A stretch of 64,000 bases of DNA from Tribonema minus (Eukaryota > Sar > Xanthophyceae > Tribonematales > Tribonemataceae). The DNA lies in assembly GCA_017506865.1 (NCBI GenBank), contig JAFCMP010000005.1, positions 248,001 to 312,000 of the forward strand, in the 5' to 3' direction. Shown here piece by piece: positions 7,918-63,850 of this stretch (positions within the stretch are counted from its first letter, which is position 1; each line of letters opens with the position of its first letter). The notes beneath the pieces were generated by a model. The model made no database searches, was not told where the DNA came from, and saw only the letters and a list, made by a program, of their open reading frames with translations. Made by a program: the position numbers and the translations under genes.

Positions 7918-8048
7918 ATACACAGTGACCTGCCTGGTGAATCATGCACCGCTTCCCCATCTCTTTGTACTCCCCTGCCCCTGCACCTGCCTCCTGATGC
8001 TGAGCAATGTCGAGCGCAGAAAGAAACGCTAGCCCGCGCAACCGCTCC

Positions 8049-10760
<2,712 letters not shown>

Positions 10761-14900: not shown

Positions 14901-17900
14901 CCGCTGCTGCTGCTGCTGCGCCACCGCCGCCGCCGCCGCGCCGCCGCCACCACCTGCCGCCGCCGCCGCCGCTGCCGCCGCCGCGGCCGCGTCCTGCTGC
15001 TGCTTGAAGCGCAGCCGCTCGAGGTGCTTGGCGAGGCGCTCGTTGATGAGCGTCGTGTCGACGGGCAGCGCGACAGCGCTCAGGTCGCGCGGCGCGGGCT
15101 CGCCCGTGATGAACGGGTGCGCGGCGGCCTGGCGCGGCGTCCAGCGCGCCCACGGCGACGTGGACAGGAGGCCGAGGCAGAAGTGCGTGAAGACGCGCCG
15201 CGCCTCGCGCTCCTCCTGCTCGCGCTGCGCCTGGAGGTCGGGCGGGGGGGGGAGGGAGGGGGGATGGTGGATGTCACGTGAGGGTGTCATGTGCATACAC
15301 TTGTGCAAACACATCTGAACATTTATTTATAGGTTTATTCGCACTTCCAGCATAAGCGTCAAGGCCCCGCCTCGCGCTCCTCCTGCTCGCGCTGCCATTG
15401 GGGGTGGGGGGGGAGGGGGGGGGGGGTGAGTGTGTGACATGCATACGTTTGTGCGCTTACAAGTACTTCAACGCATATACGTCAAAAGGCCGCGCCTTGA
15501 TTGTTTCCAGCTCGCGCTACGCCTGGGGGTGGGGGGCAAGGGTGTGTGTGTGTGTGTGAGGGTGTGGTGTGCATACATAAGGGTGCGATGCGCCCAAGAG
15601 CAGCGTCAAGACTGAAAGGCGGCAGTGGTGCGCCCAAGCAGGGGCGGAGGGGGACAAGGGGGGCGATCAACAAGCAAGCGGCGCCTTACAAGCAGGGGAG
15701 TTGCGGTGAAGCGGTAGCACGTGGCGCTCTCCAAGTGCCAGCTCTTGCTGCAAAATTGAGTACTTCAAGTACTTGAAGTGTCCACTCCCCTCACCTCGCG
15801 CTCCGCGGCGCCGGGGTTGGCGCCGCTGGTGCTCTGCCGCCGCCGCGGCATGGGGTAGCTCTTGATGATGTCGGGTATGTTGCTGTGCTTGAAGTACTTC
15901 TTGGTCACGGGCACCGCCGTGCTCGTGTCCCGCGCGTACTCCTCAGGGGTTTTGAGAACGTACCTGCAAGTGGGGGTGGTGGGGGGGGGGAGTGAGGGTT
16001 GGGGCGGAAGGGGAATTGAGCGGCTGCATTTCACTTGCTGAAGAAATATCGCCTTGCTGAGGAGGTATTGCATTAACAGCTCGCTGGTGCTCCACGACCT
16101 GAGCGCTGCTGCTACTGTCACTGTTCGCATTCATGGAAAGGGTACGGAGACACATTGCATACTGGGTATGAACTGCACTTGCTGGGCATGTATGCAGTTG
16201 CTGGGTAGGTATAGCAACTTCAAGTAGCTCACTGGTGCTCCACGACCTGAGCGCTGCCGCTGACGCCGTTGGCATCCATGGAGTGGGTATGGGCCTACAT
16301 TGCACACTGTGTATGCAATACACAAATAGGTATGTATTGCACATACTGAAGGTATTGCGCACTCCGTCAGCAGCTTACCGGTGCTCCACCGTCGGAGCGC
16401 TGCCGCTGTCGCCGTTGGCGTCCATGGCAGCGAGCCCCATGCCCGCCCCCCACGCCCCCTCCCCTGGCGGCCGCGTCACGACGCGCTCGCGCCGGAAGAA
16501 CTTGAGGGTGTCGCGGCCATTCTGCAGCATGAACTCGGGGGGCAGGCCCACCATCTCGACGATGCGAGATATCTGGCATGGGGAAAGGGAGGGGGGGGGG
16601 GGGGGGGGGGAATATGTGAAGGAGGCCATACGCGCATGTGATGTGGGGTGGGGTGATGATGGTGTGTGTGTGTGTATTGGGGGGCACGGCGGGGGGGGAT
16701 GAGAAGCCACGAAAGATATGTTAGTAAAGCTGGAGTCGACATCACAACTAGCAACGAGCGTCCAAGCGGGAAGCAGCGCGGCGTGAACTTCAACTCCTGA
16801 GGGAGCACGCTTGCCATCTCAGAGGTGAGAGGGCGCACATGGCAGGCGCCGTGCACAGTGGTCTTTGCACGTTCAGATTGCTTACATCATATAACAGGGG
16901 CAATATGCCAAGGCGAAACGTGCCGACCGGTATGAGAGTGTGACGTGCTGCGCATCGCCGAGGGATGCAGATGCGTGCACCTTGCACACACGGCCTGAAG
17001 CAGGGAGCAGGCGCACGACAGGGCCCGTGGTGCTGCGCGATGTGCAATGCTGCAAGAGCTACTGAACGCGGGAGCGTGTCGCCACAATCACCCCACGCAT
17101 GATTGCCATATACATGGATCCTGATGCAGACTACACTTCCAAGTGTTTTGAAGTTCAAACCAACTTCAAAGAGAACGTCAGCCGGAAATCCCCTGGCTGC
17201 ACACAGTACAGGAGTACACGTGTACTGCAAGGCAGGTAGGTACCTAGTCGTGATCGCTGACCCCCAGGGAGGATGGGCAGTCCAAGGATATCTCGAGGGA
17301 CATGCAGCCAAGGCTCCACATGGCGGCATTGCATGGCCGCCTGCTACCACATGACATATGCGCTTCGCACGCACCTGTGTTCACTTGCATCAATGCCAAG
17401 CCAGCACTTCATGACATCATCACCGTTCTATACGAAACGAATGCATACATGCCTACCTGGTTGTGATCGCTGGCGCCCGGGAAGATGGGCAGGCCCAGAA
17501 ACATCTCGAGGCACATGCATCCGAGGATCCACATGTCAATCGCGCCATCGTACAGATTTCATTCAATATATGCACCACGATACCAGCATCAGTTCAGGCC
17601 ACTGGGCATCCAGGTACGTATCAACTCTATCAACTTCAACATGTACACATCAACTTATCAGGAAACCTTTTTGTAAGTACCTGATTGTGGTCGCTGACCC
17701 CCGGAAATATGGGCAGCCCCAAAAACATCTCGAGGCACATGCAGCCGAGGCTCCACATGTCGATCGCGCCGTCGTACGGCAGCCCCAGCAGCACCTCCGG
17801 AGAGCGGTAGAAGCGCGACTGGATGTAGCTGTACATGGTGTTGCCCTCCCAGCACGCGGAGCCAAAGTCGATGAGCTTGATGGCGGCGGCGGGGCGCGCG

Positions 17901-20900
17901 CCGCCGCCGCCGCAGCCGCTGCCGCCGCCGCGGTGCAGCTTGCTGACCATGAGGACGTTCTCGGGCTTGAGGTCGCAGTGGATGACGTGCGCGGCTTCCA
18001 GCGCGGCGAGCGCCTCCAGCATCTGAGCGTTGTCACAAGGGGGGGGGGGCAGGGGGGGGGGGGGGGTGAAGTTGAAGTGTTCAGGTAGCACGCACTCAGA
18101 CTCAAAGGCCTTGCAGTATGGAAGCGAAGGTCGCAGTGTATGACGTGCGCCGACTCGAGCGGCGAGCGCCTCAGCAGCAGCAGCAGCAGCAGCAGCAGCG
18201 ATCAGAGATCGTGCGCAGGAGCAGCGACAGCAGCAGCGTCGGCAGCATGAGCAGCAGCGGCAGCAGCAGCAGCAGCAGCGACGGCAGCGGCAGCACAACA
18301 GCAGCCATCAGGAGTCGTGTTCGGGAGTGCGTGAGAGACGAGTCGCTGCGCGGTCCGACAAGTCCCGAGCAGTGTAGTGCATAGGGTTGGGGTTAGGATT
18401 AGGGTTAGTTGCAGGAGCCCCAATTGTTGCAGGTGGAGAACGGGAAACAGCGCGCACTCGCACCGCGCTGCATGCGCAAGGCGCCCGCCCGCGCACCATG
18501 GTGTGCACATCTGCACGGCATTCTGGTGCGACGCGCCGTGACAAAGCTTGCTGAGCACTGAGCTTGCGGAGCACTGAGCACGGGCATGTACGCATGTGTT
18601 GTCACCTAAAGCTCTACGATCTTTTGATTCATTTCCCATGTATACATTGCTGTCAGTCGGCTCGCCGCAGTACATGGGGGGGCATGCGCTGTCGCAGAGC
18701 AGCCAGGCCCTTCTCCCTTCTCAGCATCGTGCGTCCTGATGCTAATGCTGAAGTCGCACTGCACACAACGCAGAACAGCCGCGCGCCCTTGTAAAACGGG
18801 CACAGTCTCGCACGTGCGGAATCTGTATGGCGTGCGTATATGGCAGCAATTAGCATAGGTACAGTCTCTGCGTGTGACTGCACACTTTGCATTGCGTCAA
18901 TTCGCAACAAACTTCACGCCATCCGTTACTGGATTGACCAACTGAGATTTCTCATCCCCTAGGTCGTGCCCTGCAGTGATGGCAGTTGCAGTACAAGCGG
19001 AGACGCTCCAGCAGTTGAAGTGCGCACCTGCTTCGTGAAGGAGCGGATCATCGGCAGCGGCAGGCCGCGGAACTGGTTCGTCTTGAGCAGCTCGTAGATG
19101 TTGATGCTCAGCAGCTCAAAGACCAGGCACAGGTGGTTGTGCGCCGCAAATGAGTCCAGGAGGCGCACAATGTGGCGCGAGTTGTCAGGGTCAAAGGTGT
19201 CGTTCAGCAGGCGCGCCACCTGGGCGAAACGCCAGCAAGGGTGACAGTTACAAAGTGGCAACAGTCGCAGTGACAGGTGGTTGTGCGCCGCAAAGGAGTC
19301 GAGAAGGCGCACAATGTGGCGGGAGTTGTCGGGGTCAACGGTGTCGTTCAGCAGTCGCGTCACCTGACATGGCACAGAATATGCAGGGTGACTTTTACAG
19401 AGATGAAGATACGGCGCAGTGATTGCAGAGAATTGAGCAGACGCACGATGTGGCGCGAGTTGTCGAGGTCAAAGGTGTCGTTCAGCTGACGCGCCACCTG
19501 GCACACGAACGAGACATGCGGGGTGACAGTTACGGAAGTGTAACAGTCACAGCAACAGTCGTGACGGCAGTGTAACTGCAGAAAAGCGAGCAGGCGCTGG
19601 CGCGAGTTGTCGGGGTCGAAGGTATTGTTCAGCAGGCGCGCCACTTGGCACGGTGGCACGGGCGCGCGTGCAGGGGTGACAGTTACGGAAGTGTAACTGG
19701 TACTGCGGGGAGCACGGTGAGTGTTGTCCACCTGCCACAACATTAGTCGTGCACGCAACAAGTGCGAAAGTATAACAGTCGCAGGAGCAGGCGCACGATG
19801 TGGCCTGACATCTAATGGAGTCGAAGGTGTCATTCAATAGGCGCGCCACCTAACATGGCACAAAATACAAGGGTGACATTACAAAGATGGAGGATTGCGG
19901 TGATACAGAGAAATCGAGCAGGCGCACAACGAGGCGCTAGGTGTCAGGGCCAAAGGTGTCGTTCAGCATGCGCGCCACCTGGCATGCGGCGCGCGCGCGC
20001 GTGCTACAGAAAGTAACAGTAGTTGCACAACTTTTGTGTGACTGCTGGAAATAACATGTACGCATACGCAGCAGAATTGCAGCGTGTGACAGTCACACGT
20101 GGCGTGCGTGCCCGCGGGGTGCACTCACTCAGCGCTCTGGCACACCAGAGCACCTCGCCATGCGCCCAATCTTCACGCGCTTTGTTGGGCATTTTTTTTT
20201 TTTGCATGGACCACCCGACAGAGCACCGCTCCTACTCGCCCATACCTTGGCATCCACCCGCGCGCAGCATGCAGGCTTGGTCTTAACGACCTTCACCTTC
20301 AAACTTACATTTGACCTTCAACTTGCCGACTCGCGAAACCGGCTCAGCTCACCACACATCGACGCCAGCATGCATGCGGTACGCGCACCTGTTCTCGACT
20401 GCACATTATGTTGAACTTCACATTGAACTTTCTAACTCACCCGCGTCTCGACCTTGAGCTTGTTCTCGATAGCATATCATGTTGAAGTTCACACTGCAAT
20501 TTCCGACTCATATCTCGATGTCCGCCTCCATGCACTACGCGGGCTTGTTCTCGATATTGTGTTAAATGAACTTTGAAGATCAAGATGAAGTTTGCGGCTC
20601 ACCCGAATCTCTCTCCACTTGCGCGCGGTACGCGGGCTTGTTCTTGATGGCAGTGTGTCAAAGTTCACAATGAAATTTGAAGCTCAAAATGAAGTTTGCG
20701 GCTCTCCCGTATCTCAATGTCCCCCTGCGCGCGGTACGCAGGCTTGTTATTGACGGCAGAGTGTTCAAGTTCAAAGTAAAGTTTGACGTTCAAAATGAAG
20801 TTTGCGGCTCACCGGCATCTTGATGTCTGCGAGCGCGCGGTCGCAGGCTTATTCTTGACGGAGTGCGTTAAAGTTCAATTTGAAGTTGAAGTTTGCGGCT

Positions 20901-23900
20901 CACCCTTATCTCGATGTCCGCCTGCGCGCGGTACGCGGGCTTGTTCTTGACGACCTTCACCGCCACCACCTTACGCGTGTTCGTGTCCTGGCAGCGGAAC
21001 ACCTGGCCGAACGTCCCCTGCCCCAGCAGGTCCAGCACCACGTAGCGCGTCCCGGGTGCCTCCAGCTCGTCGTTGACGCAGCAGATTAGATTCTGCTCAG
21101 CGGCGACGAAAACATTTGAGAGGTAGCTCAGTAGTGCACTGTGCCATGAGCCGGCAAGAGGATTATAATTTGGGTCAAAGCGAGCTGGGGGGGGGGAGTA
21201 TGTAGGTAGCAGCCCTGCCCGAGCAGGTCCAGTGCCAAGCGCGTACCCGGCGCCTCCAGTTCGTCATTGATGCAGCAGATTAAATTCTGCGCGGCAACGA
21301 ATGAGTACCGGGGTAGCAGCGCTCTGTGCCGTGAGTCGCCACAGGGAGGGTTAGGCTTAGGGTTAGGATTTCATTTGGGGGGTATGTAGGTAGCAGCCCT
21401 GCCCCAGCAGGTCCAGCACCAGCGCGTCCTGGGTGCCGTTAACTCGTCGTTGACGCGTCAGATTAGATTCTGCGCGGCGACAAATAAATTATGGGGGCTT
21501 TGTAGGTGGTGCTGTGAGCAACACCAAGTGCGGGTTAGAGTTAGGTTCAGTTCAGGGTTAGAAGTAGATTGAGAGGTATGCAGGTAGCAGCAATGCCGTG
21601 CCATGAGTCGTAGGTTGAGCGCGGAGCGCGAACCATGGCTGTGCGCATCCGCAGCATACACCTCAAGTTTAACATGAGGGCGCCAGACTTACCTCTAACC
21701 CCCAACCAAAACCTCACCCTCACCCTAGGCTAGCTCACTGCTGGCTCCTCACGGCAGCGCTCACGGGGCAGTGAGGTGGTGTGCCAGAGAGCTACAAAAC
21801 ACTACGTGATGAAAAACGAATCGAAAAGATCGTTGAGCTCTAGGTGACAAGGGATGGTTAGCCGCAAGTGCCTTCCACCAATAACCGTGGTCGCCGCTGC
21901 TGCAGTCATTGGCCACGAGTCAAACAGTGCCACCATAACCACAGTAGGCAAAAAGACTTCTGTGTGCAAGCTTTTTAGCGTTCGAGGCATGGGTGTTCTT
22001 GATGCCGCCTGACGCGGAGCTGACGCGCGCCCAGTGCCTTCTCGCGCAACAACTCAAATGCACTGCATGCGGCGCAAGAACAGCAGCGCTGTCGGATGCC
22101 GCTGAGCGGCTCGAGCCAGACGACACTGACCAATGCTGCCACTCTAGCCCGAACCCTAGTGTCCACGTGCGATTCGCGCGGATGAACCGCTGCTTGATTG
22201 CGAGGTGGGCTGCACTGAGCCATGCTGATACCACCAGCGCTTCATGAACGCGTGACCATAGTCGTGCAGAGCGGTCCGCGAACACCAACTTCAACTTCAA
22301 CAGTCCAGTCCTCAACCTCAACAACTGCGAGTCGGACTACAATGAGCAATGCTACCACATCTAGCCCTTTACCCTAGTGCCCATGCATGGTTCGCGCAAA
22401 CAAACCACTACTTCAACATCTCAGGCGCGCGACCTTTGGCCTCCCGCCATTTGTGGACAACGCCCGCCAAGGGCATGTGCTCTCACCGTGCTGCATGACG
22501 TCACACTTTTAGATTGCCAGCTCGCCAATACGCCACTCGCATTTTAGGTTTGGGGTGAAAGTTGGCTCGCGCAGCGCACAACGCAGCATGCCACTGATGA
22601 CAGTGACTGGAGCCCATTCTGCTTTCAGTGCTCCGGGGGCGCAAAGTTGGCGCACGTACGCGGTCCTGCCTGTAACTGCCTGTAACTGTCTGCCGCAGCG
22701 CGCGCGCGCGTGCGTCGCGCGCGCGCCGCGCTGGTGGCGAAACAGCGGTGCACCCCTGCCGTACATCCCCTGCGTTAACAACAGCCCGATACCCGCTTCA
22801 TTGGTGCACGGGCACATGCATAGCGACATGCGGCGCGACGCCCGCTGACTGAGTTAGGGTTAGGGTAAGGGCCACTGACACACCCTGAATGACATTCAAG
22901 TACTTGTACACAATGCATACCATGATCTGATATGCATACCCTTGTATGATGCTACCTATCTATGTACAGCTGCTGATCTGCACCTCAGGCACCCACGCGC
23001 GCCTGAAATTCGAGCAGCGAGATGGCTTGACAGCCTTGACACTTGAGCGCATTGCAGCGCTTCAGGCAGTGAACAGCGGATCAACCGACCAGATCGCACC
23101 ACCAACAGCCAGTACTCTGAGTGCCATGACGCTTTTGCGCGCTCTGGCAAGCCCACCTGGGCTACCGGTGCATGCGACAGGCGGGTACACTGACAGTCGC
23201 GCTGATGGTCGCTGGGAGCAAGCCTTCAGTGCTCAGCGCTGCCCCCCCCCCCCCCTTCCTGTCTCCAAGACATGCCTCAATCTAGTGCAAGAAGAGCTCA
23301 GCTGCTCAGGCATGACCCACAGCCCGCAACACGGCTCGCCTGCTGCTATTGCTCAGCCGCCCTACAGAGTGTTCACTTACTGGCAGGCAGGGCCCCCAAA
23401 GCAACTGTCGCTGCAGCAACAGTTGCACACAATTCATCAGTCAGCGCTGTCACTGACGCGCTGCCGCACAGATGCCACAAGGTGGCGCAATGGTCGGGCC
23501 ATGAAGTGGCACCAATACTTGAAGTACACCGATAACAGTGTACTTCCATCAAGCGGCAGGGACCACGCCGCTCAGACCACCCCCACTTATTTCAACACAG
23601 CTTCTGAGGGCGCAGAGCCCATTGAACTTGTGTGAGACCAAGTATATGGTCATCCCATGTGTGATGCGGCTTGAGGTCATGATGCATGACTGATGCGGTC
23701 GTGGTCTGCCGCATTTCGCAACCGCTTTGTGTTTTTGTTTGTAAAGAAGGAGAGACCTTGCGCGAGCATGCACACCAAGCTTCGCCTCAGGTATGAATGA
23801 ACCATAAAACGGCAGCGACACTGCGAGCCCCCACGCCTCATAACCCTTCACGCCTAAGCGCCAGCGCACCTGCACGCGCCTGTCGCAGCGCGCCGACGAA

Positions 23901-27500: not shown

Positions 27501-28240
27501 CACAAGGCCTGAGAATCATCATGCGCCATACTTACTGCGCCTGTCTGAGCACTGGTGAAGCTGCATCCGCCGCGCTGCGTGCGCTGCCTGAGCCGCGCCA
27601 TGCGATGACTGAGCGGCAGCGGCGCTGCGTGCGCCGCGCAGCACTCCATGGGGCTGCGCACTGCCGGCGGCGTGCAGCCCGGTCGCTGCAGCACAACGCT
27701 CAGCACAGCTGCTGCCATCATGGACCCCACCAGCGGACCTGCTTGGTCATCTTGGATGCGGCATAGCGTGGATAGCATCATCGACACCATCGCTTGCCAC
27801 GATTCTTGCAGTTTGGGTGCACGAAGCGCGAATAGCTGGCACAGCGGACACACCTGCTGCTGCTGCTGCTGGATCGCTTTGGTGCAGTTTTCAAAGCGCT
27901 GCTGAGCAGGTGGCAATGTAGCCCTTTGGGGAAGCGCGCTGCCGTGTGCGGGTGCGCGGCAGCCTCCTTCGTGGCCTAGGCATCATTGCGCAGTGCTCGA
28001 CCGGCGCTGCGGCAATCGCCGTGATTGCCTCCAGCGCGCTCCGCCTCGGCCGCGTTGCTGAGCGATGCGCGCAGCCTTTCAGAGCAGCGCTGCACTTCCT
28101 GGCAGGTCAACAGCGGCGTCTGCTGTCGTTGCCCTTCGCGGCGCTAGCTGTTGTGGCCGACGGAACTGTTGGTAGCTCTAGTCGCCTTGCCTGACCTTGC
28201 AGCCACGGGGCGCCCGCAGGCTGTCAGGGTAGCGCTGCAG
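24513..28240. other. Intergenic between Yak1 start and PPR 3' end
   Basis: Includes the kinase promoter and the far end of the decayed copies of the last PPR exon; weak resemblance to that exon may reach about 27550. Several GC-rich open frames occur on both strands (for example 25860-26339) but none has convincing splice sites or family-like motifs. Confidence 0.4.
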
Positions 28241-28249
28241 CCGTTGCGG

Positions 28250-28645
28250 CGATGTCCGCCATTCTTCAGCGTGTTGCCAGTGATGGTGACTGACAAGCGC
28301 CTTCGCCGGCTGCAGTCGCGAACTGCTATGGCCCGCGCTGCCGCGCGCAGTCCGCCACAGCAGCTCGCAGCAGCGCGCGCAGCGCTGCACGGCTTCCGCC
28401 GCGGCGCGCGCGTCATTGGCTCAGTGCAGCGCCAGCGGTTACATCCAATGAAACCGTCACTCGCTTCTGTCGCGCACTGCCATCACCGCGCTGCCAAGCG
28501 CGGCGCGCAGCCCGTCAACGCAGTTCGCGGCAGCGCGCGCCGCCGTCGCCCGCCGCCGCCGCGGCCGCGGCGCAGCGCTGTACGGTCTCCGTCGTGGCGC
28601 AGCCTCCTCAGCGCAATGCTAGCGGTTGCAGTCAACCAGAAACCG
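28250..28645 (-). repeat. Copies of the last PPR exon, including its stop codon
   Basis: The 3' part of the last PPR exon, peptide VMAVRDRSE plus TGA and the next bases (GTTTC...), recurs nearly unchanged at 28446-28541 and in more decayed form at about 28280-28400. Here the duplicated edge is the coding end rather than a splice donor. Confidence 0.82.
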
Positions 28646-31600
28646 TCACTCGCTCCTGTCGCGCACCGCCATCACCGCGCTGCCGAGCGCGACGCGCAGT
28701 CTGTCGGAGCAGCGCTGCAGCTGCCGCGCCATGCGCAGCTTCACGGCGGCCTCGGCGGCGGCGCGCGCGTCAGCACTCAGCGCGACGCCGGACGCCTCAA
28801 GGCGCGCCAGCAGCTCCTGCAGGCGCGCCATGTCGCCAAGCTCCGTCAGGCGCCGCACCTGAAGTTGAAGAAGTGAAGTTGAAAAATTGAAGTTGAAGAA
28901 GTGAAGTCGAAGAAGTGAACTTCAGGCATCAGTACAAGCGGAACAAGTAGAAGGGGGTCGCATGATTTAGTATGTTGTTGAAACACACCAAAAAAAGCGC
29001 CTGGTGTTCTTATTTATACATAAGACGGTGAGCAAGTGTACACAGGCAGATGCAGCGCGAAGGTGGCGACCGGCCCCAGCAGCCGGCCCATAGACACAGA
29101 CAGTGCGCCGGCGCAGCGATATGCAGTGGCCATTACGATCGGTGGTCATCACGATGAGCGGCACGCATGATGTCAGATGCCGAGCTGAAGTAGGGTGAGG
29201 GCAACAACCAGATTCCGATGCACACCATAACCGCTTGAAATTCTGCCATAGTGTCAGCTGCCCCCCCCTCCCCCTTGTTGAAACCGTGCCACCTGCAGCA
29301 GCCACCCTTACGCGCCCACCGTGCGAACGCCAACATACCGTACGTAACCTCTGACACACACGTAGGGCCTGCCTCGCCGCCTATCATACACACTGACCAT
29401 GCCCTCCAGCTGAGCAACCGGCAGCGCCACGCCGCCCCCCAGAGCGCGCTCCACCGCCGCCGCCGCCCCCGCCATGTTCCCCACGCGCAGCAGCGCCGCG
29501 AGCACCTCGCTGTGACAGCGCTCACCCAGCCGCAGCCCGCGCGCCGCCGCGTCCTCCAGCGCCGCCGCCGCGCGCCCCACGTCGTGGCACGCGAGGTACA
29601 CGTGCACCATCGCCGCGCGCACTGCCTCGCGCTCTCCCTCGGGCATCGGTGGCGCCGCCGCTGCTGCTGCCGCAGGCTCAGCGTCGTCCACTGCGCCAGC
29701 ATCGCGGCCTTGAACGGCAGCGACACTGCTGAACGGAGTCGCTGCTGCTGCTGCTGCCGCGCCGCCGCCGCAGCAGTGCGCCACGACTGCCTCCGCACCG
29801 GCGACATCCTGCGCGGCGCCGAGCGCGTGGACAAGCGCCGCGCACGCGCCGCGCGGCGGCGCTGCGCCCGCCGCCGCCGCCGCGCGCAGCGCCGCCAGCG
29901 CCGCGGCGCCGTCGGCGCACTGCGCGGCGTCGCGCAGCGCGGGCGCGAACGCCCACGTGTCATCCAGCGCGACCCCCGCCGCGCGCGCATTCCTGAGCAC
30001 TGCTGCTGCATCGCTGCCGCCGCCGCCGCTGCCGCTGCTGCCGCCGAGCGCAGTCGCAATGGTCAGCAGCGCGGCGTGCGCAGCGGCGTCCGCGCACGCG
30101 CCCGCGGCGGGCATCGCGGCGGCAATGACGTGGCGCGCGGCGGCGAGCAGCGCCGCCGCCCCCGACGCGGACGCCGCCGCTGCCGCCGCGGGAGCCTGCG
30201 GCGCGCCTGTGAGCAGCAGCGCCGCGCACTCGCGCGCCGCGTCGTCCGCCGCCGCCGCCGCCGCTGCTGCTGCCGCCGCCGCTTCGCCGCCATCCCTCCC
30301 CACGTCGCTCTCCGCCGCTGCTGCCGCGCCGCCACGTGCAGCATCAGCGGCGGCGGCGTGCGCGGCCACGGCGGCGGCGGCGCGCAGCACCGCGGCGAAG
30401 CTGTGCGCGGACTGCGGCACGGCGGCGCGGCGCAGGGCCGCCCACGCGGCGAGCGCGTCGCGCGGCCTGCCCGCCTGCGCGAGCGCCTCCGCAAGCAGCG
30501 CGGACGTGGCGGCGTCCGGCGACGCGCCGGCGGCGCGCATGGCGTCGGGGACGGCGAGGGCGCCGCCCGCGTGGCGCGCGCCGCGGGCGAGGTGGCCCTG
30601 AGGGGACGGGAGGGGGGTGGGCGGGGGGGGGGGGGGTAAGGTGAGGTATGCATGGCGGTGAGGCGCTGGGATGGGGCGGTGCGCGTTGCGAGGCACAAGA
30701 GGTGGATCACGCGCGTGTGTGTGTTGTGTGTGTGCGCGCGCAGAGGCATGCTCTGCAGTGTTGCGCTGGCATCTGATGACTCTCCGCCGACGTGCAAGGC
30801 AGCAGCAGGATGACAAGGGCATCCTCGATATTATACGCACTTGCAGCATCGCCGTGCTCAATGCGTTGCCCTGACAGCCCCCCCCAGCCTCAATGTCAGC
30901 TGGCAGTTCGTCGCAAGTTGATCACTGACAGTGCCTTTTACAGCAGCAGTGCGCCAATGTCTCCTCCAACATACGTGAGAAGAATGCGACTCGTTGGAGC
31001 GCGCGAGCACGTGTGCTGCAGCACGGCCGCCGGCGCCAGGACGTCTGCGATGGCCGCCCTCACCTTGATGAGCGGGTTGAACGTCACCGCGGAGGGCGCT
31101 ACGCCGCTCGCTGTCATGAGCTCTATCGTCTTCATCGCCGTGTCCACCTGCGGCGGCAGCAGCGCAGCGGCAGTGCTCAGCAAAAGCGCGTGCTTCAAGT
31201 GTGCTTCAAGAGTTGTCTTTTGAGCAAAGGCAGCAATGCCTCAGGATGCTAGCTGCGACGCCAGGCTAAATACGGCGCTGCGGCAGCGGTCGTGGCACAT
31301 CTTGCGGAGTTATTAGCCGTTGCGTCGCTGAGCATCTGCAACAGCAGCAGCGCTTGGCAATCGTGCTGTGGTGTAGTCCCTTTTTCCCAGCTGTCACAGC
31401 GGCACTGCGGCGTATGCAGTATTGCAGCATAAGCGATACTGCAGCATACGCAATACACCCTCCAGCACCTCGGTGTGGTGTTTCGATGCTGATGGATGGC
31501 GGCGTTTCATGTCCGTCGGCGCTCGCCAGCGCTCACGTTGCCGAGGCGGTAGCACGCGTCCATGAGCGTATTGTAGCGTTTGAGAGTGCACGAATACATA

Positions 31601-33821: not shown

Positions 33822-34188
33822 CGCGCTGTGTGTGTGCGATGATTGATTCCAACTTCCACAAAGTTCAAGTTCTAATCGATGGGTGGCTTGTGAGCACCTA
33901 CAGGCTGGCAACCAGGGTCGTACAAGGTAAGCGTGCGACGGAAAGGCTCGCATAGGTTACCTAGTGCGTATTCTCTGTGCGACTGCCACTTCGCGTCCCG
34001 TTGGACCTTGGCATCTGTACACTGCTCTGTTTGGGTCACTGATAGCAGGCAGCCTCTGTGGTTATTGCGGCCGCCGAGGCCGGTCGCTCGATCGCCTTGC
34101 CTGGTACAAATCCTTGTATTTCTCAGCTTCTCTGCAGCTGTTTGAGTCCTCCACCTGCGCCGTTTCATCCTGTGCCTCCGGCAAACAG
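33822..34188. promoter_or_regulatory. Bidirectional promoter region, PPR / eL34
   Basis: Only 367 bp separate the divergent start codons. A donor-like CAAG|GTAAGCG at 33927 and a CAAACAG acceptor directly before the eL34 ATG suggest that eL34 has a leader intron in this interval. No TATA box is clear. Confidence 0.5.
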
Positions 34189-36639: not shown

Positions 36640-37155
36640 GCGCACCGCAGCAGCCCTAGGGCTAGGGCTTGCGCATGAGCCTCGGGAGGGGGGGCGGGCG
36701 GAAATGCCAGAGGGGGCGGCGGCGGCGAGGGCGGAATGCGGATTCAACGCTGCTGAGCAGTGCTGCAGATGCCGTGCTGTTTTGACGCAGGGGGGGCTTT
36801 GGGGGCCGCTTTCGTGCGGTACCTCCCCCCCCCCCCTCCCCCCCCTCGGGTCCGCAGCTGCACCCCCTTTGCGCTGTTCTTGGACCCCCAGCCTAATATC
36901 TACACCACCGTTGCCAAACAAGACTTGCGTGACGCGCTGCTCGTGTGGTGTGTCGTGTGCCCTGCGCGTGGTGTATCGCTGCTGTCTTTGGGCGTGACGA
37001 CTGCTTCGTGCGCGGCAGCAGCAGTCTGGCGGGCGCTGGCAATCGTTATCATGCACAAACTTGGCTCGCCACGTTCTGCTTGCTGTTACTACCACTTGCT
37101 TTTGCATTGCATGTTTTTCACGTGTCTCCCGCTGCTGCATAGCTTTTTTGTCTAG
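36640..37155. other. eL34 3' flank, no gene recognised
   Basis: Directly after the stop is a CCCTAGGGCTAGGGCT palindrome-like stretch and then a C-rich run (36825-36850). No exon recognised. Confidence 0.4.
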
Positions 37156-38030: not shown

Positions 38031-38680
38031 CGCTCATCAAGGAGGCGATGCTTTACTTAGTTATATAGCCTTTCTCTCTAGCGTCAGCGCCTGGCGCCCA
38101 GTGACTCCCTCTGCTTATCTCTATGATATCGGGGTTCACGTAGATAGCCACAATCTCCAGTTCAGGGCCCATCATGGTGACCTTGGCCTGCATGAAAACT
38201 TTGAGATGGAGTCTGCGTGGAGCTGGGTGGCCCTTAGAAGGGTCTGTCTGTGGGGGGAGAGTCTTGCAGCTTTGTTTGGTATCCCTGCTAGTGTGTGGGG
38301 GACAGTCGCTTGCGGATGCTTTGTTGGGGGTGATATGGGAGGCCCGGTGAACCACCGTCCCGCTCATCAAGGAGGCGATGCTTTGCTTAGTTATATAGCC
38401 TTTCTTTCTAGCGTCAGCGCCTGGCGCCCAGTGACTCCCTCTGCTTATCTTTATGATATCGGGGTTCACGTAGATAGCCACAATCTCCAGTTCAGGGCCC
38501 ATTATGGTGACCTTGGCCTGCATGAAAACTTTGAGATGGAGTCTGCGTGGAGCTGGGTGGCCCTAAGACGGGTCTGTCTGTGGGGGGAGAGTCTTGCAGC
38601 TTTGTTTGGTATCCCTGCTAGTATGTGGGGGACAGTCGCTTGCGGGTGCTTTGTTGGGGGTGATGTGGGGGGCGGGGTGT
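38031..38680. repeat. Tandem duplication, 330 bp x 2, inside the TIR element
   Basis: Copies 38031-38360 and 38361 to about 38680 are some 97 percent identical; the period is 110 codons. Minus-strand peptide VTMMGPELEIVAIYVNPDI resembles the LxIVxVYxxP strand of LINE-type endonucleases, seen in both copies and open between them. The plus strand is also open for 321 codons. Which strand, if either, was coding is uncertain; the minus strand is favoured by the endonuclease-like pattern. Confidence 0.85.
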
Positions 38681-38742
38681 GGCGTGCAAGCTTTGCATGC
38701 TACATCCAAGAGTGAGAACAAGGCGACACACCTACAACATGG

Positions 38743-38779
38743 CATTTCCACAGCCACAAGTGGAATATAATAAAAGTAC
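38743..38779 (+). repeat. 37-bp sequence with exact inverted copy at 46889-46925
   Basis: Begins CATTTCCACAGCCACAAG and ends AAAAGTAC, just inside the right end of the TIR element. Its exact reverse complement occurs 8 kb away, so it is part of a dispersed element. Confidence 0.95.
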
Positions 38780-38846
38780 CAAATCAGCTAGATGCCATTC
38801 ATCTGGGCTTTTTCGCGCCCTGAGCGAGAATCGATCAAAAGTACCA

Positions 38847-54300: not shown

Positions 54301-56382
54301 TGCTTACTGTCGTAGATTGCATTATCATATCACGGTGGCCACCCGTCATGATGGGGACATGCCGCAATATCAGCACAGATCGGCAAACTGGCCTCAGAAA
54401 CTTCTCAGCTATGTATGCATAGAAATTGATTGATTTCATTGTTGATCTGTTCAAGGTTTATCATCGCATGCAGACTTAGACATTGGTAGCGTTGCCAGCC
54501 TTGTCGTGCATGGTCAGTCATGCCTTGATGTCCATGTTATTTCTGTGAATGACCGAGGCAGGTACACATAAGGATCCTAGAGGCATGACGAGCTGACACA
54601 TGTGCACTGCCCCCTGCGGTTTAACGACGAGGGGTGCGCTGTTACGTGCCTCGAAAGACTTGTCAAGCAACGACAGCACGCGTTGTCAAGGATGTGCTGT
54701 AGGACCTTCACTCTCAGTGTGCTGGAAACTTACATCCACAACAAGCAAATTTTTAGCGCTGCAACGATCTGACGTTGCAGAATATTATTGCTGACATCGA
54801 GAGGTGTGCGTCACAGCACAACAGCGCCAAGAACTGAAACCATCATCTGTATGTAACCAGCACGGCTTTTGTCAAAGATCTGGCTGTCCCCACTGTGCAC
54901 GACAACGGTCTGCTTGCGCAACCGTCAACAGCCACTGAAGCTGCTTGTAAGCTTGTGCATGATTTACAAGCAGAACACAGCACTTCAAGGTGCTTCAAAG
55001 TACTGTAGCTGTTCACGGACGCATTTGAAATCTTTTCGTGAATTTGGAAATAAAAGCGTTTGGTAGCGCATTAGATCAAATTTTTAGCGCTGCAACGATC
55101 TGACGTTGCAGAATATTATTGCTGACATCGAGAGGTGTGCGTCACAGCACAACAGCGCCAAGAACTGAAACCATCATCTGTATGTAACCAGCACGGCTTT
55201 TGTCAAAGATCTAGCTGTCCCCACTGTGCACGACAACGGTCTGCTTGCGCAACCGTCAACAGCCACTGAAGCTGCTTGTAAGCTTGTGCATGATTTACAA
55301 GCAGAACACAGCACTTCAAGGTGCTTCAAAGTACTGTAGCTGTTCACGGACGCATTTGAAATCTTTTCGTGAATTTGGAAATAAAAGCGTTTGGTAGCGC
55401 ATTAGATGATGTAGTTCGTCTGCAAAATCAAAGATTCAGTTCACTGCACCTTGAAATCATCATTGATCCGCACATTGGTGATGCGCTTCCGGTCTTGCGC
55501 GCAGTTGAATGTGAAGTTGCACTTCGAATTTGAGGTTGCTCTGCACTACTCACCTTGAACTCATCGTTGAGCTGCAGGTTGGCGTTGAGGTAGCGGTCCT
55601 GCTCATTGACCTCATCTTCAAGTCTGGCCTCAAGGGCGCGGATCTGGCCGTCTCGCTCGCTGCACGCGTGCTCGTCCTTCTTGATGGACTCTATCATGTG
55701 GGAGAGCTCCCCTTCCATCGACGACAGCTGTGTGGGATGGGGGGGGCGGAGGATGGGGGAGATGAAGCAGTTGGCATTGCGGATTCATGCACTGCAGTTG
55801 AGTTGGTTAATCGGAGCTGACGCTTGGTGCCATGGTGCGCTGTGCCTTCAATGGACACACCAACACGATCTGATGCCAGGATGATGATTCAGGGTTTCAG
55901 AAAAGCGCTTGGGACGAGAGTGCAGGCGATGCGCAGCACGCAAGAATTGACAGGATTAGCCGGGACCCATTAAAGCTGGATGGCCAAGTTTCAAAACACC
56001 AGTGGCGCTATGCAACGATTCGAGGCAGCACCTGTACGCGATGCAGTTCGTCATTTTGATGGCTGGGCAGCAAAGATACGAGTGCGCTTGAAGAGTGCCA
56101 TTGTCCACAAATTCATCCTTGCAAGCAGACGTGCAAGTTCAGCCTTTGTTCAATGACAAGATACTCCTGAATGCAGCGCTGGCGCAAGCTGCGCGCGTTG
56201 GGCTCTCTAACCATGCCTGCAGATGCAGAAGCTCTGGATTCATGCAGGCTGCACACACACACAGGCCTGGTTTACACGTCAACGGCGCAATGAGCACGCA
56301 ATCTGCAAGACTTTCACGCAGTCTGACACTGCTGCTCTAACGCCTGTGGCGGCCCACCGCTCACCTTCGCCATGTCGGACAT
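48325..56382 (-). CDS. Alanine-rich coiled-coil protein with basic C-terminus
   Basis: Exons: 56365-56382 (MSDMAK), 55554-55727, 52714-53271, 52016-52286, 51180-51352, 50633-50794, 49261-49551, 48325-48573; all phases agree, giving about 631 residues. Almost the whole chain is predicted by eye as coiled coil, rich in Ala, Glu and Arg (for example ENEQDRYLNANLQLNDEFK-like, then RMLEKLEDLRAKGAHIIKNP). The end KAKAKRRSSGKSSKKRRS is a likely nuclear-localisation or nucleic-acid-binding tail. The MLEKLEDLRAKG...IIKNP region faintly recalls the Nuf2 kinetochore coiled coil, but no N-terminal CH domain is present, so I do not name it. The tiny first exon is the least certain part; it follows an in-frame stop and has a good ATG context. 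Confidence 0.75.
48795..48835 (-). repeat. Acceptor-side exon copy before the last coiled-coil exon
   Basis: CAACAAGACGAGATGGAGTA resembles the exon start CAAGATGAGATGAAGCAG (real start 48573), with the CAG acceptor lost and a TAG in frame. Confidence 0.6.
50279..50301. repeat. Telomere-like tract in a coiled-coil gene intron
   Basis: ACCCAACCCTAACCTTAACC, a degenerate CCCTAA array between coiled-coil exons 6 and 7. Confidence 0.65.
50527..50590 (-). repeat. Donor-side exon copy after coiled-coil exon 6
   Basis: The exon end GTGGAGGCAGACATCGCGAC and the following GTAAGTGACAC intron start (real end 50633) recur about 90 bp downstream with GT changed to GC. Confidence 0.7.
51850..52010 (-). 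repeat. Tandem intron copies after coiled-coil exon 4
   Basis: Two similar units of about 83 bp, sharing GCTCACAACGCCGCTG and GCGCTGACCCGGCCGGC, follow directly on the donor of the exon ending at 52016. Confidence 0.8.
54746..55407. repeat. Tandem duplication, 331 bp x 2, inside an intron
   Basis: Copies 54746-55076 and 55077-55407 differ at only one base that I can see (CTGGCTG versus CTAGCTG), so the duplication is very recent or is homogenised. Each begins CAAATTTTTAGCGCTGCAAC and contains a perfect 8-bp inverted pair CTGCAACG/CGTTGCAG. It lies in the 2.3-kb intron between coiled-coil exons 2 and 3. Confidence 0.97.
55441..55463 (-). repeat. Donor-side exon copy after coiled-coil exon 2
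   Basis: INDDFK|GTGCAG-like remnant about 100 bp downstream of the real LNDEFK|GTGAGT (55554). Confidence 0.65.
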
Positions 56383-60000: not shown

Positions 60001-63000
60001 GGCAGTGGTCGTCCTCGTCATGTCGTGATGTGTTGTGCAGCAACCAACACTGCGGAAGGGCCTCCCACGGTGATGTGTGTCTGCATAATGTTCATCTACC
60101 GCCACGCCTTTTCTGGTAGCTGATAGTACGGAACGGCCTGCTAAGGTGGCGTGTGCCCTCAAATGCCGTCCCACCCCATTGCCGCTTTCCACAGGAGCCC
60201 ATCATGAGGAAGGACCTGACTGGTGCGCCTACGTCGCATGCAGACTCTGCTAATCCCTGCCTGTGTTGTGCAGTAACCAACAGTGCGCAATGGCCAGTGG
60301 CAATGGCAATGGCCTGCCAAGACGGCGTGTGTCCTCAACAGCGGTCCCATTTGCGCTGTCGCTTTTCCCAGGAGCCCATCATGGGGAAGGGCCTGATCCC
60401 GGCGGACCCGCAGACGTGGAAGGTGCGGCGACGCGCCATCGTGCCGGGCTTCCACAAGCGGTGGCTCAACCGCATGATGCGCCTGTTTGCGGAGTGCAAC
60501 GAGGCGCTGCTCGACCAGGTGAGGCGCCTGGATTGAACTTCATGTTTGAAGTTATATGCATGAAGTTAGACTGGTAATGGTAATGTGCGCCGTTGCGTAG
60601 AGCTCCCGCTTGTGGGTTCCACAAGCGGTGCTCAACCGCATGATGCGCCTGTTCGCAGAAAACGAGGCGCTGCTCGACCAGGTGAGCGCGCTGCTGCGAG
60701 ACTCGGGATCAGACTTCACGTTCGAAGTTCAATGAGTGAAGTTAGACGGAGTGCAACGAGGCGCTGCTCGACCAGGTGAGGCACTGGGCGAGACTTCATG
60801 TTTGAAGTTATGAAGTTTTGACTGAGTGATGCGCGCCATCGTGCCGGGCGTTCGCAAGCGGTGGCTCAACCGCATGATGCGCCTGTTCGCCGAGTGCAAC
60901 GAGACGCTGCTCTTTTAGGTGAGCGCTGCTGCGCGCCTGGGATGAGCTTCATGTTCGAATTCATGAGTGAAGTTAGACGGGCGCCGTCATGTCAAGCTGC
61001 CGCTTGTGGCTTCCAGGCTGTTTGCAAGTGCAACGAAGGCGCTGCTCGACCTCAGATGAACTTCACTTTGAAGTGATGTGACTGAAGATTAGGAGTGCAA
61101 TGAGGCGCTGCTCGACCGCATGGGGCGCTGCTGCGCGCCTGCGGCTAAACTTCATGTTTGAAGCAGTGTGAAGTATCCGCCAGTATACCTCCGAGGCTGA
61201 GAAGCCCTCAGCGCCCACGCCATCGCTTGCAGCACGAGCTCTGCGCTCTCTAGGGGCAGTTTGTTGTACTGATGCTGCAGCGGTGTCTGCGTTACGTCGC
61301 CTGACGCTTCCAGCAGTGCGTGCGTGGCACTGCGTGCGTGTCCAGATTGTTGTGAAAATGGTGTATAAACCTGTTGAAGTTTATGAAATGTTGAACTAAA
61401 AAGTTGAAGTTTATGCTTGCGCGCAGGTGGGGCACGCCGCCGATGAGGGGCGCACGCTGGACATGGAGGAGAAATTCTGCTCCGTGAGCCTGGACATCAT
61501 AGGTCGCGCCGTGTTTAACTACGACTTTGGCAGCACCAACAAGGAGTCCCCCGTCATCAAGGCAAGCCTCTGAATGTAGTTGGATGTGAAGATGCTCACG
61601 AAGCACGTGTCGGATGGGTGTTGGAAAAGTAATTTGGCAACTTCAATGCTGTTCTTCAAGTCATGGCAGGTAGCATGAGGTCCTCAGCTATGTACGTCTT
61701 CAACAGTGTAACAAGGAGTTTCTGATCATCAAGGCAAGCGGTCTCTGAATGCGGTGTGATGTGATGATGCTTACAAACCACGTGTAGGATGGAGGTATTG
61801 GAAAAGTAGTTTTACAACTTGTATGCGATCTGATGTGACGACAAATTGCGGGTTGATGCTGGTGGAAAAGCACTCCGGCAACTTCTGTGTTTGTGCTGAA
61901 GTTATGGCGGCTATGTCATGTGTTGTCTTCAGCTATGTGCGGCTGCCATAGTGCGATAGACCCCGCGCCTGCGCAGGCGGTGTACCGCGTGCTGCGCGAG
62001 GCGGAGCACCGCAGGAGCAGCTGCGCACCGATCCAGCAGCTGCCGTTCGCGACACAGCTATGAACTTCAAGTGCATAACTTCAATTTTTTATCCTCAAGT
62101 AATGGTATGAATCTGCACCCATGCAGGCGGTGTACCGCGTGCTGCGCGAGGCAGAGCACCGTAGCAGCAGCTTCATGCTGTACCAAACGCTGCCATTTTG
62201 CGTGCTGTGATCTTTAAATTTTCAACCTCAACTCTGCGTGCTGCTCTGAACTTCAGTACACTTGTTGCACCTGCCCCCGCGCAGGCGGTGTACCGCGTGC
62301 TGCGCGAGGCGGAGCACCGCAGCAGCAGCTTCATACCGCTCTAGATGCTGCCTATTGGAACGCAGCTGTGAACTTCAAGTTCATGACGTCGTTGACTTTC
62401 TCGTGTCATTAACCCGCGCCCATGCAGGCGGTGTACCGCGTGCTGCGCGAGGCGGAGCACCGCAGCAGCAGCTTCATACCGTACTGGAAGCTGCCGTTTG
62501 CGACGCAGCTGCTGGCGAGCCAGGTGGAGTTCAGCGCGGACATGCGGCTGCTCAACGACGTCCTGGATGAGCTCATCTCCAAGGCCGTCGCCACGCAGCA
62601 GGTCGCGGACGTGGAGGAGCTGGAGAGCAGGGATCTCGACGTGGCGGAGGACCCAAGGTATGTATGTATATATGTACTTTGAAGCATGTACTTGCTCTTG
62701 ATTCTCGCTGAGGGCGCGAAAAGAGCCCCGATCGTGGACGCCCAGCTTGCAACCAGAATCTTCTCGTGTCTTTCAGCACCTTGAAAGTGTCTCAGTGCGC
62801 ATTGCCGACCACTTCTCAACAGCGCATGTACTTCGAGTGGAGTATGTGGTTGGAAGTATGTGGCTGTTCTGCAGCGTCTGCCGCAGCGCACGTTGTGTGC
62901 TGGCAGTTTGCGCGTGCGGCGGGAGGATCTGGCAGAGTGCGCCGGGGAGGCGTTCATGCGTGTTTTGATTGAGCGCAGAGGTGTTGTGTACCGTGCAATC

Positions 63001-63500
63001 CTCGCTACGGGAACAATTTGAGCACGTGTCATCTGTGACCATGCAGCAGTGTAGGACACGGCGTTACAGCAGCACACCCATGACCTACAATGTGCATGCA
63101 CACATGCGAGCGTGCGCACACGCAATCGCGTACCACTACGTGCCCACATCGACACGACGTTCGTTTTCGACAAGCCCCGACGTACCCGCCTGTTGTCTCA
63201 ACATGCCCCCCCCCCACACCACCTCTCTCAAAATCGCTTTCGCCCCCCCCCCCCCCCCCCACTCACAATCAATCGCTTTCTCCCCCCCCGCCCCCCCCCC
63301 CCCCCGTCCTCTGCGCTTGCATCCCCCTGCTCAGCCTCCTGCGCTTCCTGATTGACATGCGCGGCGAGGACACGACGTCCAAGCAGCTGCGCGACGACCT
63401 CATGACCATGCTCATCGCGGGGCACGAGACCACCGCGGCAGTGCTCACCTGGACGCTCTTCAACCTGGCGCAGAACCCGGAGCTGACGGCGCGCGTGCAG
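57046..63500 (+). CDS. CYP97: CYP97-family cytochrome P450, plastid carotenoid hydroxylase type (3' partial)
   Basis: Exons seen: 57046-57567, 59264-59464, 60372-60518, 61427-61561, 62428-62657, 63335-63500, all phase-consistent, about 467 residues; the gene runs off the window before the ExxR and haem-Cys regions. CYP97 enzymes hydroxylate carotenoid rings in plastids. Family motifs: [74 protein letters not shown] (I-helix with the AGxET oxygen-activation motif) and [14 protein letters not shown]. The N-terminus [20 protein letters not shown] is a signal peptide ending ATTAAFHIP, where AAF matches the Phe motif that directs proteins across a secondary plastid. The intron after exon 4 uses a GC donor (ATCAAG|GCAAGC). 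Four of its five introns clearly carry exon-edge copies. Confidence 0.95.
58836..58892 (+). repeat. Possible far copy of CYP97 exon 2 start
   Basis: GAGCGCCTGGGGGTC, then CCGCTGCTGCTGACGCACTTC, resembles the first 60 bp of exon 2 (real start 59264) with many changes. This is the least certain of the copies listed. Confidence 0.35.
59540..59740 (+). repeat. Tandem intron duplication in CYP97, period about 117 bp
   Basis: Units near 59545-59622 and 59660-59737 share GGCTTGCNNTTGT, CGGCGCGTGTT and TGCCANCTGGCGGGG. They lie just downstream of exon 2. Confidence 0.8.
60120..60240 (+). repeat. Acceptor-side exon copy before CYP97 exon 3
   Basis: The exon start GAGCCCATCATGGGGAAGGG (real start 60372) recurs at about 60193 behind TTTCCACAG as GAGCCCATCATGAGGAAGGA. 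The upstream intron halves also match (GGCCTGC(T/C)AAG(G/A)(T/C)GGCGTG). Confidence 0.9.
60600..61160 (+). repeat. Five donor-side exon copies after CYP97 exon 3
   Basis: The exon end ([21 protein letters not shown], real end 60518) recurs ending near 60681, 60775, 60918, 61055 and 61115. The first three keep AG|GTGAG. Units continue into an ACTTCATGTTTGAAGT-type intron palindrome, so edge, donor and palindrome move as one block. Confidence 0.93.
61690..61760 (+). repeat. Donor-side copy after CYP97 exon 4, GC donor kept
   Basis: AACAAGGAGTTTCTGATCATCAAG|GCAAGC mirrors the real exon end AACAAGGAGTCCCCCGTCATC plus AAG|GCAAGC (61561). The non-canonical GC donor is present in the copy too. Confidence 0.85.
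61970..62375 (+). repeat. Three acceptor-side exon copies before CYP97 exon 5
   Basis: The exon start ([16 protein letters not shown], real start 62428) recurs at 61977, 62127 and 62285, each behind a good GCAG acceptor; spacings are 150, 158 and 143 bp. Each copy runs into an in-frame stop within about 30 codons (TGA, TGA or TAG), so only the last acceptor gives P450. Confidence 0.95.
62694..62740 (+). repeat. Solo end related to the 37.4-38.8 kb TIR element
   Basis: TTCTCGCTGAGGGCGCGAAA and flanking bases match the element's terminal repeat at roughly 80 percent. It sits 45 bp into the CYP97 intron after exon 5; I see no partner end. Confidence 0.7.
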
Positions 63501-63628
63501 GTACGTTTATGTATGACGCAACCCTCTTAATTAAGTGGGGGTCGTCTTGCGATCTCATGTAGCAGTGCAGCAGGGGCAAGTGTAATATGTGGCAACGTCA
63601 AATGATCCGCATATGCTGGCGCGAGCGG

Positions 63629-63850
63629 GGGCACGAGACCACCGCAGCAGTGCTCACCTGGACGCTCTTCAACCTGGCGCAGAACCCGGAGCTGACGGCA
63701 TGCGTGCAGGTACGTATATGTTACATTAATGATGATTGAAGTTGTCTTGTGATCTGATGCAGCATTGCAGCAGAGGAATGCTATGTAGCAACGGCAAACG
63801 GTCCGCTAAAGGCTGCCGCATATTCCGGAGCTGACGACACTTGAGCAGGT
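63629..63850 (+). repeat. Donor-side exon copies after CYP97 exon 6
   Basis: The exon end ([20 protein letters not shown] through VQ|GTACGT, real end 63500) recurs almost perfectly ending at 63709, and as a short remnant (PELTTLEQ|GTAAGG) ending at 63848. Confidence 0.93.

Follow-up and report, generated by a model that had tools for sequence, protein, structure and literature searches.

The introns of Tribonema minus (Xanthophyceae) carry arrays of decayed tandem copies of the exon edges that border them. These arrays are described here for a 64,000-nucleotide stretch of contig JAFCMP010000005.1 (assembly GCA_017506865.1, forward-strand positions 248,001 to 312,000; hereafter the window) and for further loci of the same assembly, and, on the strength of one assembly and 351.7 kb of tested DNA, they are real and widespread in the genome. 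Where introns come from and how they lengthen usually cannot be traced, their source sequences having been erased; in the present case, between a quarter and a third of the tested exon edges still reveal that source. Our reading, to which we assign a probability of about 0.55, is that introns grow by recurrent short tandem duplications that straddle splice junctions and preferentially strike them.

The tested DNA amounts to about 0.2% of the 158.2-Mb, 554-contig genome. Besides the window it includes a contiguous run of ten 10-kb pieces from the window's contig, and ten other contigs contribute a single 10-kb piece apiece. It is completed by all ten CCT/Cpn60 gene clusters listed in a Pfam table and by a kinesin locus. 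The choice of this last locus (L032) followed the sight of a doubled edge in its Pfam table, and at the CCT epsilon locus (L029) two edges were entered manually once its copies had been read; seven edges in these two loci entered post hoc, and the main counts are also given without them. CCT exons were chained from Pfam matches with GT/GC–AG sites, giving 29 introns from 41 neighboring exon pairs, with four profile matches judged to be copies excluded by hand. A small gene finder trained on the 29 introns recovered 54 of their 58 junctions in-sample; the version used, retrained once, recovered 52 of 58, also in-sample, and yielded 96 strong exons outside the CCT loci, with GC at about 17% of strong predicted donors. 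Copies were sought with exon queries of at most 120 nt and with score thresholds that were not uniform across tests (26, 29, and 34), the CCT threshold being the 99.5% point of 1412 unrelated comparisons. Before the main counts 62 of 236 edges were dropped, 47 for low complexity and 15 for a short flank.

Copies were found at 50 of 174 edges (28.7%), or at 43 of 167 without the L029 and L032 additions. In the window the adjacent intron holds a copy at 16 of 47 edges (7 of 26 acceptors and 9 of 21 donors), and 11 of the 29 solved CCT introns carry copies, proportions well short of the "nearly all introns" of an earlier note on this DNA. Among ab initio edges, where the flank was long enough in 161 of 176 and 118 were left after removal of low complexity, 36 have copies (18 of 64 acceptors and 18 of 54 donors) against a null of 0.24% from 2455 unrelated comparisons; 31 of 113 do so without the kinesin locus. 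The profile-anchored CCT edges give 13 of 58 with a copy in their own intron (7 of 29 donors and 6 of 29 acceptors; null 0.5%). The same note had placed the copies upstream of acceptors and downstream of donors, and the controls bear this out: the intron on the wrong side passes in 1 of 93 ab initio cases and 1 of 24 CCT cases, and mid-exon windows pass in 21 of 385 (in 7 of 51 exons) and 2 of 40, respectively. Spacing, put earlier at about 70–225 bp, has a measured median of 156 bp (interquartile range 129–187, 10–90% range 100–269), and the homologous exon part of a copy has a median of 56 nt (10–90% range 33–91).

Local repetition in this DNA is overwhelmingly direct. Self-BLAST of the window returned 59 pairs at most 1.5 kb apart, 58 of them direct and one inverted (11 lie within the polyubiquitin gene), and all tested DNA together holds 274 direct and 8 inverted pairs at most 2 kb apart. 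Local direct copies occur for 27% of windows at exon edges and 14% deep inside exons; outside exons the figure is 25% within 300 bp, 17% at 300–1000 bp, 14% at 1000–2500 bp, and 6.6% beyond. Inverted local copies stay at about 1% or less everywhere except deep inside exons (2.3%), and the frequency of local repeats varies by locus from 0 to 43% of windows. Intron growth, which the earlier note had proposed as a consequence, finds support in the CCT introns, whose median length is 877.5 bp with copies (n = 10) versus 515 bp without (n = 19; p = 0.016).

The arrays can also be seen without a gene finder. Pfam tables for Cpn60, kinesin, proteasome, and MCM (56, 132, 45, and 27 listed matches; 122 of 191 kinesin candidates were scored) were read by eye, counting as copies those matches that overlap a same-strand neighbor at most 1 kb away by at least 20 model positions. 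The 260 listed matches contain 11 copies. Nine have an exon edge in common with their neighbor, and on the side expected, with five 3′ edges downstream and four 5′ edges upstream; of the other two, one is an exon read-through into its intron and one is ambiguous. Five of the nine come from loci also analyzed as sequence. This visibility in the Pfam tables, the occurrence of copies in many contigs at profile-anchored junctions that are independent of the gene finder, and the fact that most copies are diverged rather than identical make an artifact of assembly or gene prediction hard to credit, even granting that the gene finder was trained on 29 introns, that a single assembly was used, and that at least one of the predicted edges (36635, which coincides with the likely eL34 stop codon) is probably wrong.

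Similarity declines away from the exon, as had been claimed: identity versus distance gives a mean Spearman coefficient of −0.40 over 30 arrays (permutation p = 0.0025), and the nearest copy is the best match in 16 of the 30, with 10.3 expected. Differences from the real exon fall at 7.7, 7.4, and 16.6% of codon positions 1, 2, and 3 (119 copies at 47 of the 174 edges), a position ratio of 2.19 (confidence interval (CI) 1.80–2.65), or 2.03 without the seven L029 and L032 edges (105 copies at 42 edges). Neutral decay of a copy should give a ratio of 2 when the exon itself is constrained, and translation of the copy a much higher one; the codon pattern of the copies is that of neutral decay. Between copies of the same array the ratio is 1.64 (CI 1.30–1.99, 28 arrays), or 1.58 without L029 and L032, where 1 is expected if copies were made from copies and 1 to 2 if they were sampled from the exon at different times; neutral simulations mostly give 1.1–1.4 (0.84–1.93 with the sparsest data). 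Serial copying from the real exon at different times is favored by this comparison, although not proved. Of the 92 copies extending as far as the junction, 76 retain the splice dinucleotide, GT/GC or AG (65 of 79 without L029 and L032), against a neutral expectation of 0.87; it is being lost at about the neutral rate.

These figures bear directly on the suggestion that the copies are functional, as alternative exons or as decoy splice sites under selection. Coding constraint was hinted at by the first arrays, notably that of CCT epsilon, where differences are mostly at third positions (2, 0, 14 and 1, 0, 8 at positions 1, 2, and 3), and most copies do keep GT/GC or AG. Over all 119 copies, however, constraint was rejected: the overall codon pattern is neutral, with a dispersion (chi-squared per degree of freedom) of 1.19 over 84 copies, L029 is unexceptional among 47 edges (smallest p 0.0066), and splice dinucleotides disappear much as neutrality predicts. 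Judged from sequence, the codon-phase pattern and the near-neutral loss of GT and AG would argue against widespread splice use of the copies, and we regard a functional role as very improbable.

A simple sequence of events could generate such arrays. A duplication unit, usually of 100–270 bp, would span a splice junction, so that one event copies the first or last 30–90 nt or so of the functional exon together with its splice site and some of the intron next to it. Of the two versions, the one closer to the body of the exon would stay the working edge and the other would turn intronic, coming to lie after the donor for 3′ edges and before the acceptor for 5′ edges. Splicing would hide such an event if it favors whichever site lies nearest the opposite end of the exon, which is how sites are chosen under exon definition, a mode of splicing that we infer from which copy is kept. 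Repeats of the event would start again from the real edge, with older copies shifted outward and decaying neutrally. No special mechanism has to be invoked for direction, since the mRNA stays unaltered only if the innermost copy remains the functional edge, and both direction and decay are as predicted by neutral, splicing-tolerated tandem duplication. The earlier proposal of repeated local duplication across splice junctions followed by decay of the outer copy is supported; what surprises is that copies are in excess at exon edges and that their exon and intron parts are decoupled.

The edge excess was measured as the frequency of local direct copies at edges relative to interior windows of the flanks. 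Copies were counted at 50 of 174 edges and in 388 of 1729 interior windows, giving a ratio of 1.28 (bootstrap CI 0.99–1.54), or 1.24 (CI 0.94–1.50) without L029 and L032; by set it is 0.81 for CCT, 1.53 for ab initio edges, and 1.68 for the window. When tandem duplication was simulated at random positions, with events that change the mRNA rejected and all sequence decaying equally and neutrally, the ratio was 0.36–0.50, and random duplication with purifying selection and equal decay was rejected as a full account. Edge copies no more frequent than copies at random intragenic positions had been named as a finding that would sink the idea; what is found is an excess over simulation, which itself climbs to 0.95 at most when introns decay five times faster. 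An edge excess of this kind would reflect a 3-fold or larger preference of duplication for junction-spanning segments. The claim that duplications always straddle a junction goes too far: a local direct copy exists for 20.7–22.4% of the windows in flank interiors, and intron-only repeats also occur in flanks lacking an edge copy, at 8.8% (CCT 18.6%, ab initio 6.2%) compared with 48% in flanks that have one.

The most serious competitor dispenses with preference. Duplication may fall at random along introns, with edge copies standing out because duplications are purged in exons, because the exon partner remains undecayed, and because native intron decays fast. Direction, neutral decay, and the gradient are all accounted for in this way; a fivefold intron decay brings the simulated ratio to 0.82–0.95, at or above the 0.81 observed for CCT, and one such run left 9.9% interior repeats in copy-free flanks, near the observed 8.8%. 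Set against this are the ratio over all edges, 1.28 with a CI of 0.99–1.54, the 6–22% of edges with copies in no-preference runs compared with 28.7% observed, and the 10–27% interior repeats that those runs generally leave in copy-free flanks. Faster intron decay alone was discarded as an explanation: it raises the ratio to 0.55–0.95, but the correlation between exon-side and intron-side identity stays at 0.33–0.52. The simulation parameters were chosen by hand rather than fitted, so that random duplication is not formally rejected; we consider it unlikely. Combining a preference of 5 with an intron decay of 2.5 gives a ratio of 1.22, and a preference of 3 with a decay of 5 gives 1.29; the former combination matches the edge and interior frequencies, the mean identities, and the copies per edge, though not the correlation. 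A junction preference is likely, at 3- to 20-fold in the simulations, with a size that depends on the decay rate of native intron.

Several results nonetheless weigh against junction-preferring duplication as the account of intron growth. CCT genes alone give the ratio of 0.81 (0.78 without L029), and for them a junction preference may be unneeded. Under equal decay, preferences of 3, 5, 10, and 20 yield 0.78, 0.98, 1.06, and 1.26, such that even a tenfold preference reaches just 1.06, and the fivefold intron decay mentioned above attains 0.82–0.95 with no preference at all. Three loci (L024, L025, and L028) have local repeats in only 0–5% of windows, and the 45 listed matches of the proteasome Pfam table hold no copies by our rule, with one pair just over 1 kb apart. 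Recent pairs are scarce, with 11 of 274 at 95% identity or more, a shortage to which instability, assembly collapse, or a slowdown could contribute. Exon-side and intron-side identities of copies are uncorrelated (rho 0.02, CI −0.19 to 0.23, n = 99; −0.07, n = 86, without L029 and L032), where simulations give 0.33–0.59, or 0.23 in one gene-conversion run with 22 copies. Finally, copies with an exon identity of at least 0.9 have an intron side at 0.712 (CI 0.66–0.76), compared with 0.70–0.89 in simulation, and simulated values come near 0.712 only in the runs with the fastest introns.

This decoupling deserves closer attention. Identity is 0.881 on the exon side and 0.710 on the intron side, a difference that arises partly because the real exon is constrained, and identity drops stepwise at the splice junction: in the 27 copies whose exon part is 0.92 or more identical, the match is 0.98 at intron positions 1–2, 0.81 at positions 3–6, and 0.59–0.71 farther on, where the background is 0.55 and simulation gives 0.79–0.89 beyond position 2. 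One explanation is that the arrays are old and that the real exon keeps renewing their exon patch through local gene conversion or unequal exchange, a concerted evolution anchored by the constrained copy. The uncorrelated identities and the sharp step fit this, as do individual arrays. In the P450 array at exon 62428–62655, for example, about 46–54 exon nucleotides are nearly identical across four units that are otherwise decayed, with the deeper exon part about two-thirds identical by eye and the intron sides at 0.58–0.72; the first VPS29 copy likewise pairs a 98% exon part with a different intron type, the intron types of that array alternating by eye. The second eL34 copy shows the reverse, with intron kept and exon decayed, and in L007 the copies share an intron start that, by eye, is not in the real exon. 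The P450, VPS29, eL34 copy 2, and L007 arrays look mosaic, as judged by eye, and gene conversion could explain such arrays one by one.

As a general cause, however, gene conversion was set aside, for although three arrays of the window look mosaic, four simulated settings fail to fit the totals. Three conversion simulations without junction preference reach an edge/interior ratio of only 0.33–0.38, with a copy-versus-exon codon ratio of 1.50–1.53 in two and 2.08 at a low rate (observed 2.19) and a copy-versus-copy ratio of 0.71–1.02 (observed 1.64). The fourth simulation has a junction preference of 5, and its values for the three quantities are 0.91, 1.61, and 1.11. We hold refreshed old arrays to be rather improbable. 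A bolder form of the junction-preferring account, which we entertain tentatively and at somewhat less than even odds, is that functional splice junctions are hot spots of short tandem duplication in this lineage, that the working edge is copied and not the older copies, that introns lengthen outward from their exons, and that the arrays are time-ordered fossils partly shuffled by local exchange; if this is true, they would constitute a dated record of an exon's synonymous evolution. If junction preference itself holds, a mutational process tied to splice junctions would be at work, and each array would provide neutral, time-orderable fossil copies of an exon edge. It is a prediction of this account that splicing picks the innermost of several near-identical sites.

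The arrays are distinct from familiar forms of repetition around exons. Mutually exclusive exons, which arise by tandem exon duplication, also repeat exonic sequence in a neighboring intron, but there a whole exon with both splice sites is duplicated and the copies are under coding constraint; here one edge is copied (a median of 56 nt, with the wrong side almost never involved) and the position ratio of 2.19 is that of neutral sequence. Introner elements, which change introns on a large scale, are families of many near-identical introns dispersed through a genome. No such family was seen for two regions searched genome-wide, window 20000–20500 and 35900–36700, which match only themselves, with the exception of matches of about 30–56 nt to one stretch of the latter. 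Minisatellite-like arrays share the head-to-tail direct copies and roughly constant period, but the parts of a unit here do not diverge together.

Closer relatives are found among duplication-based intron gains. In potato, a tandem duplication across an intron–exon boundary led to a single intron gain (PMC4974935). That duplication, like those proposed here, crosses the boundary with its splicing signals and turns a former exon part into intron; it was one event that created a new intron and a new donor, whereas the edge copies of T. minus show no new intron but a lengthening of existing ones, often repeatedly at one edge. The Rogers model, as outlined in the same source, invokes duplication of an exonic segment bearing AGGT, and duplication-based gains have been described in Drosophila (PMC2891723). 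That model likewise derives splice sites from tandem duplication and has exonic copies turn intronic, although it requires an exonic AGGT and places the new intron inside the exon. Human polyubiquitin offers introns in tandem repeats with dual-specific splice sites (PMC10809524): repeat expansion beside splice sites is likewise hidden by splicing, but one sequence serves as both 5′ and 3′ site and the unit is the coding monomer, whereas each copy here carries one kind of site. A pervasive directional pattern of edge copies, which the earlier note believed undescribed, is reported in none of the open-access papers among the top matches listed; the search covered open-access literature, and novelty is provisional.

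Gene models in the window comprise a protein kinase, a PPR gene, eL34, VPS29, coiled-coil genes, a carotenoid-hydroxylase-like P450, and polyubiquitin, the names DYRK, VPS29, and coiled-coil having been assigned by eye or taken from the earlier reader. All but polyubiquitin had been credited with arrays; these were recovered in the kinase, PPR, eL34, VPS29, and P450 genes and not in the coiled-coil genes at 48–56 kb, where one of eight tested edges gave a weak match (55553, score 33) and none did in a stricter test. The kinase gene lies on the minus strand. Its DYRK-like exon (17681–18022; Pkinase E 7.9e-24) has two copies of its donor edge 17681, at 17457–17553 (97 nt, 88% identical, then GT) and 17250–17325 (75 nt, 85%, with indels), and one of its acceptor edge 18022 at 18128–18176 (90%, AG not intact). 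Exon 16379–16572 has two donor-edge copies (16234–16281 and 16086–16136). Upstream of exon 13185–15230, self-BLAST and inspection place acceptor-edge copies at 15364–15512, near 15390 and 15510, the nearer at 84% over 63 nt and the farther by eye with approximate ends; this edge, 15230, was excluded from the counts for low complexity. Exon 19028–19219, part of the kinase chain without a Pfam match of its own, has five acceptor-edge copies at 19273–19978, spaced 129–205 bp apart. Exon 20904–21092 (Pkinase E 3.4e-7, 30.4 bits, slightly below the cut-off) has five donor-edge copies (20817–20860, 20707–20755, 20607–20647, 20511–20554, and 20253–20297) and two acceptor-edge copies at 21213–21469.

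Also on the minus strand, PPR exon 31941–32138 (PPR_2 E 7.3e-12) is followed by three donor-edge copies at 31539–31850, and exon 28667–28858, which probably belongs to the same gene, by a weak, indel-rich set of four at 27581–28578. The remaining arrays are on the plus strand. The eL34 exon starting at 36454 (Ribosomal_L34e E 3.1e-15) has acceptor-edge copies at 36275–36339 (95%, AG intact) and 36086–36154 (exon part 0.78 over 36 nt, intron side 0.92). VPS29 (Metallophos_2 E 1.7e-8) has donor-edge copies of exon 44340–44552 at 44644–44734 (98% over 91 nt, GT intact, with the intron after GT differing from the real one) and 44903–44940, and an acceptor-edge copy of exon 45528–45779 at 45377–45434 (AG not intact). 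In the P450 gene, exon 60372–60518 has a weak 25-nt acceptor-edge copy at 60195–60219 and five donor-edge copies at 60614–61117; exon 62428–62655, which resembles LUTEIN DEFICIENT 5/carotene epsilon-monooxygenase, has three acceptor-edge copies at 61977–62368 with a period of 143–158 bp; and exon 63336–63500 (p450 E 2.4e-11) has a donor-edge copy at 63628–63709 (96%). Outside the window, four copies at L005 junction 568 (minus strand) share the donor's intron side and not the exon part; the predicted exon there may be wrong.

The window also holds recent tandem pairs. Two abutting 331-bp units at 54746–55407 are 99.7% identical with 0 shared bases at the joint, and two 183-bp units at 7550–7917 are 98.9% identical with 2 nt in common; a polyubiquitin pair likewise shares 2 nt. 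A fourth pair, of 330 bp at 38031–38781, has no clean joint and lies within a dispersed repeat that recurs in L018 and L007 at 97–99%. Such short joints suit end-joining, unlike recombination between long repeats, although with so few pairs this is only a hint. The motif ACTTCAA/TTGAAGT is over-frequent in introns (344 versus 242 expected in 348.7 kb) and appears in several echo units; as a breakpoint motif it was rejected, being not tied to unit ends. The polyubiquitin gene itself (8029–10490, minus strand) has introns that interrupt ubiquitin units after KTLT, the second and third of which look related by eye. A short repeat at 21809–21998, probably a transposable element, is found in six other loci and at window 555–695 with 82–95% identity, among the best 40 of 119 matches.

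Elsewhere in the assembly, the Cpn60 paralogues of L028 (4602–4730) and L031 (8022–8150) are 93% identical over these stretches and 76–81% in the others listed; the pair was tried as an independent intron clock and proved too old. Because no long match to plastid psaA/psaB was found in the assembly, the plastid genome seems absent from it. Short nuclear fragments of these genes occur at 11 places (for instance C168:558775–558942), and two joined fragments align with PDB chain 9m4f_A at 73 of 78 residues identical. CCCTAA repeats are present as well, a motif reported as telomeric in the haptophyte Phaeocystis globosa (PMC11347835).

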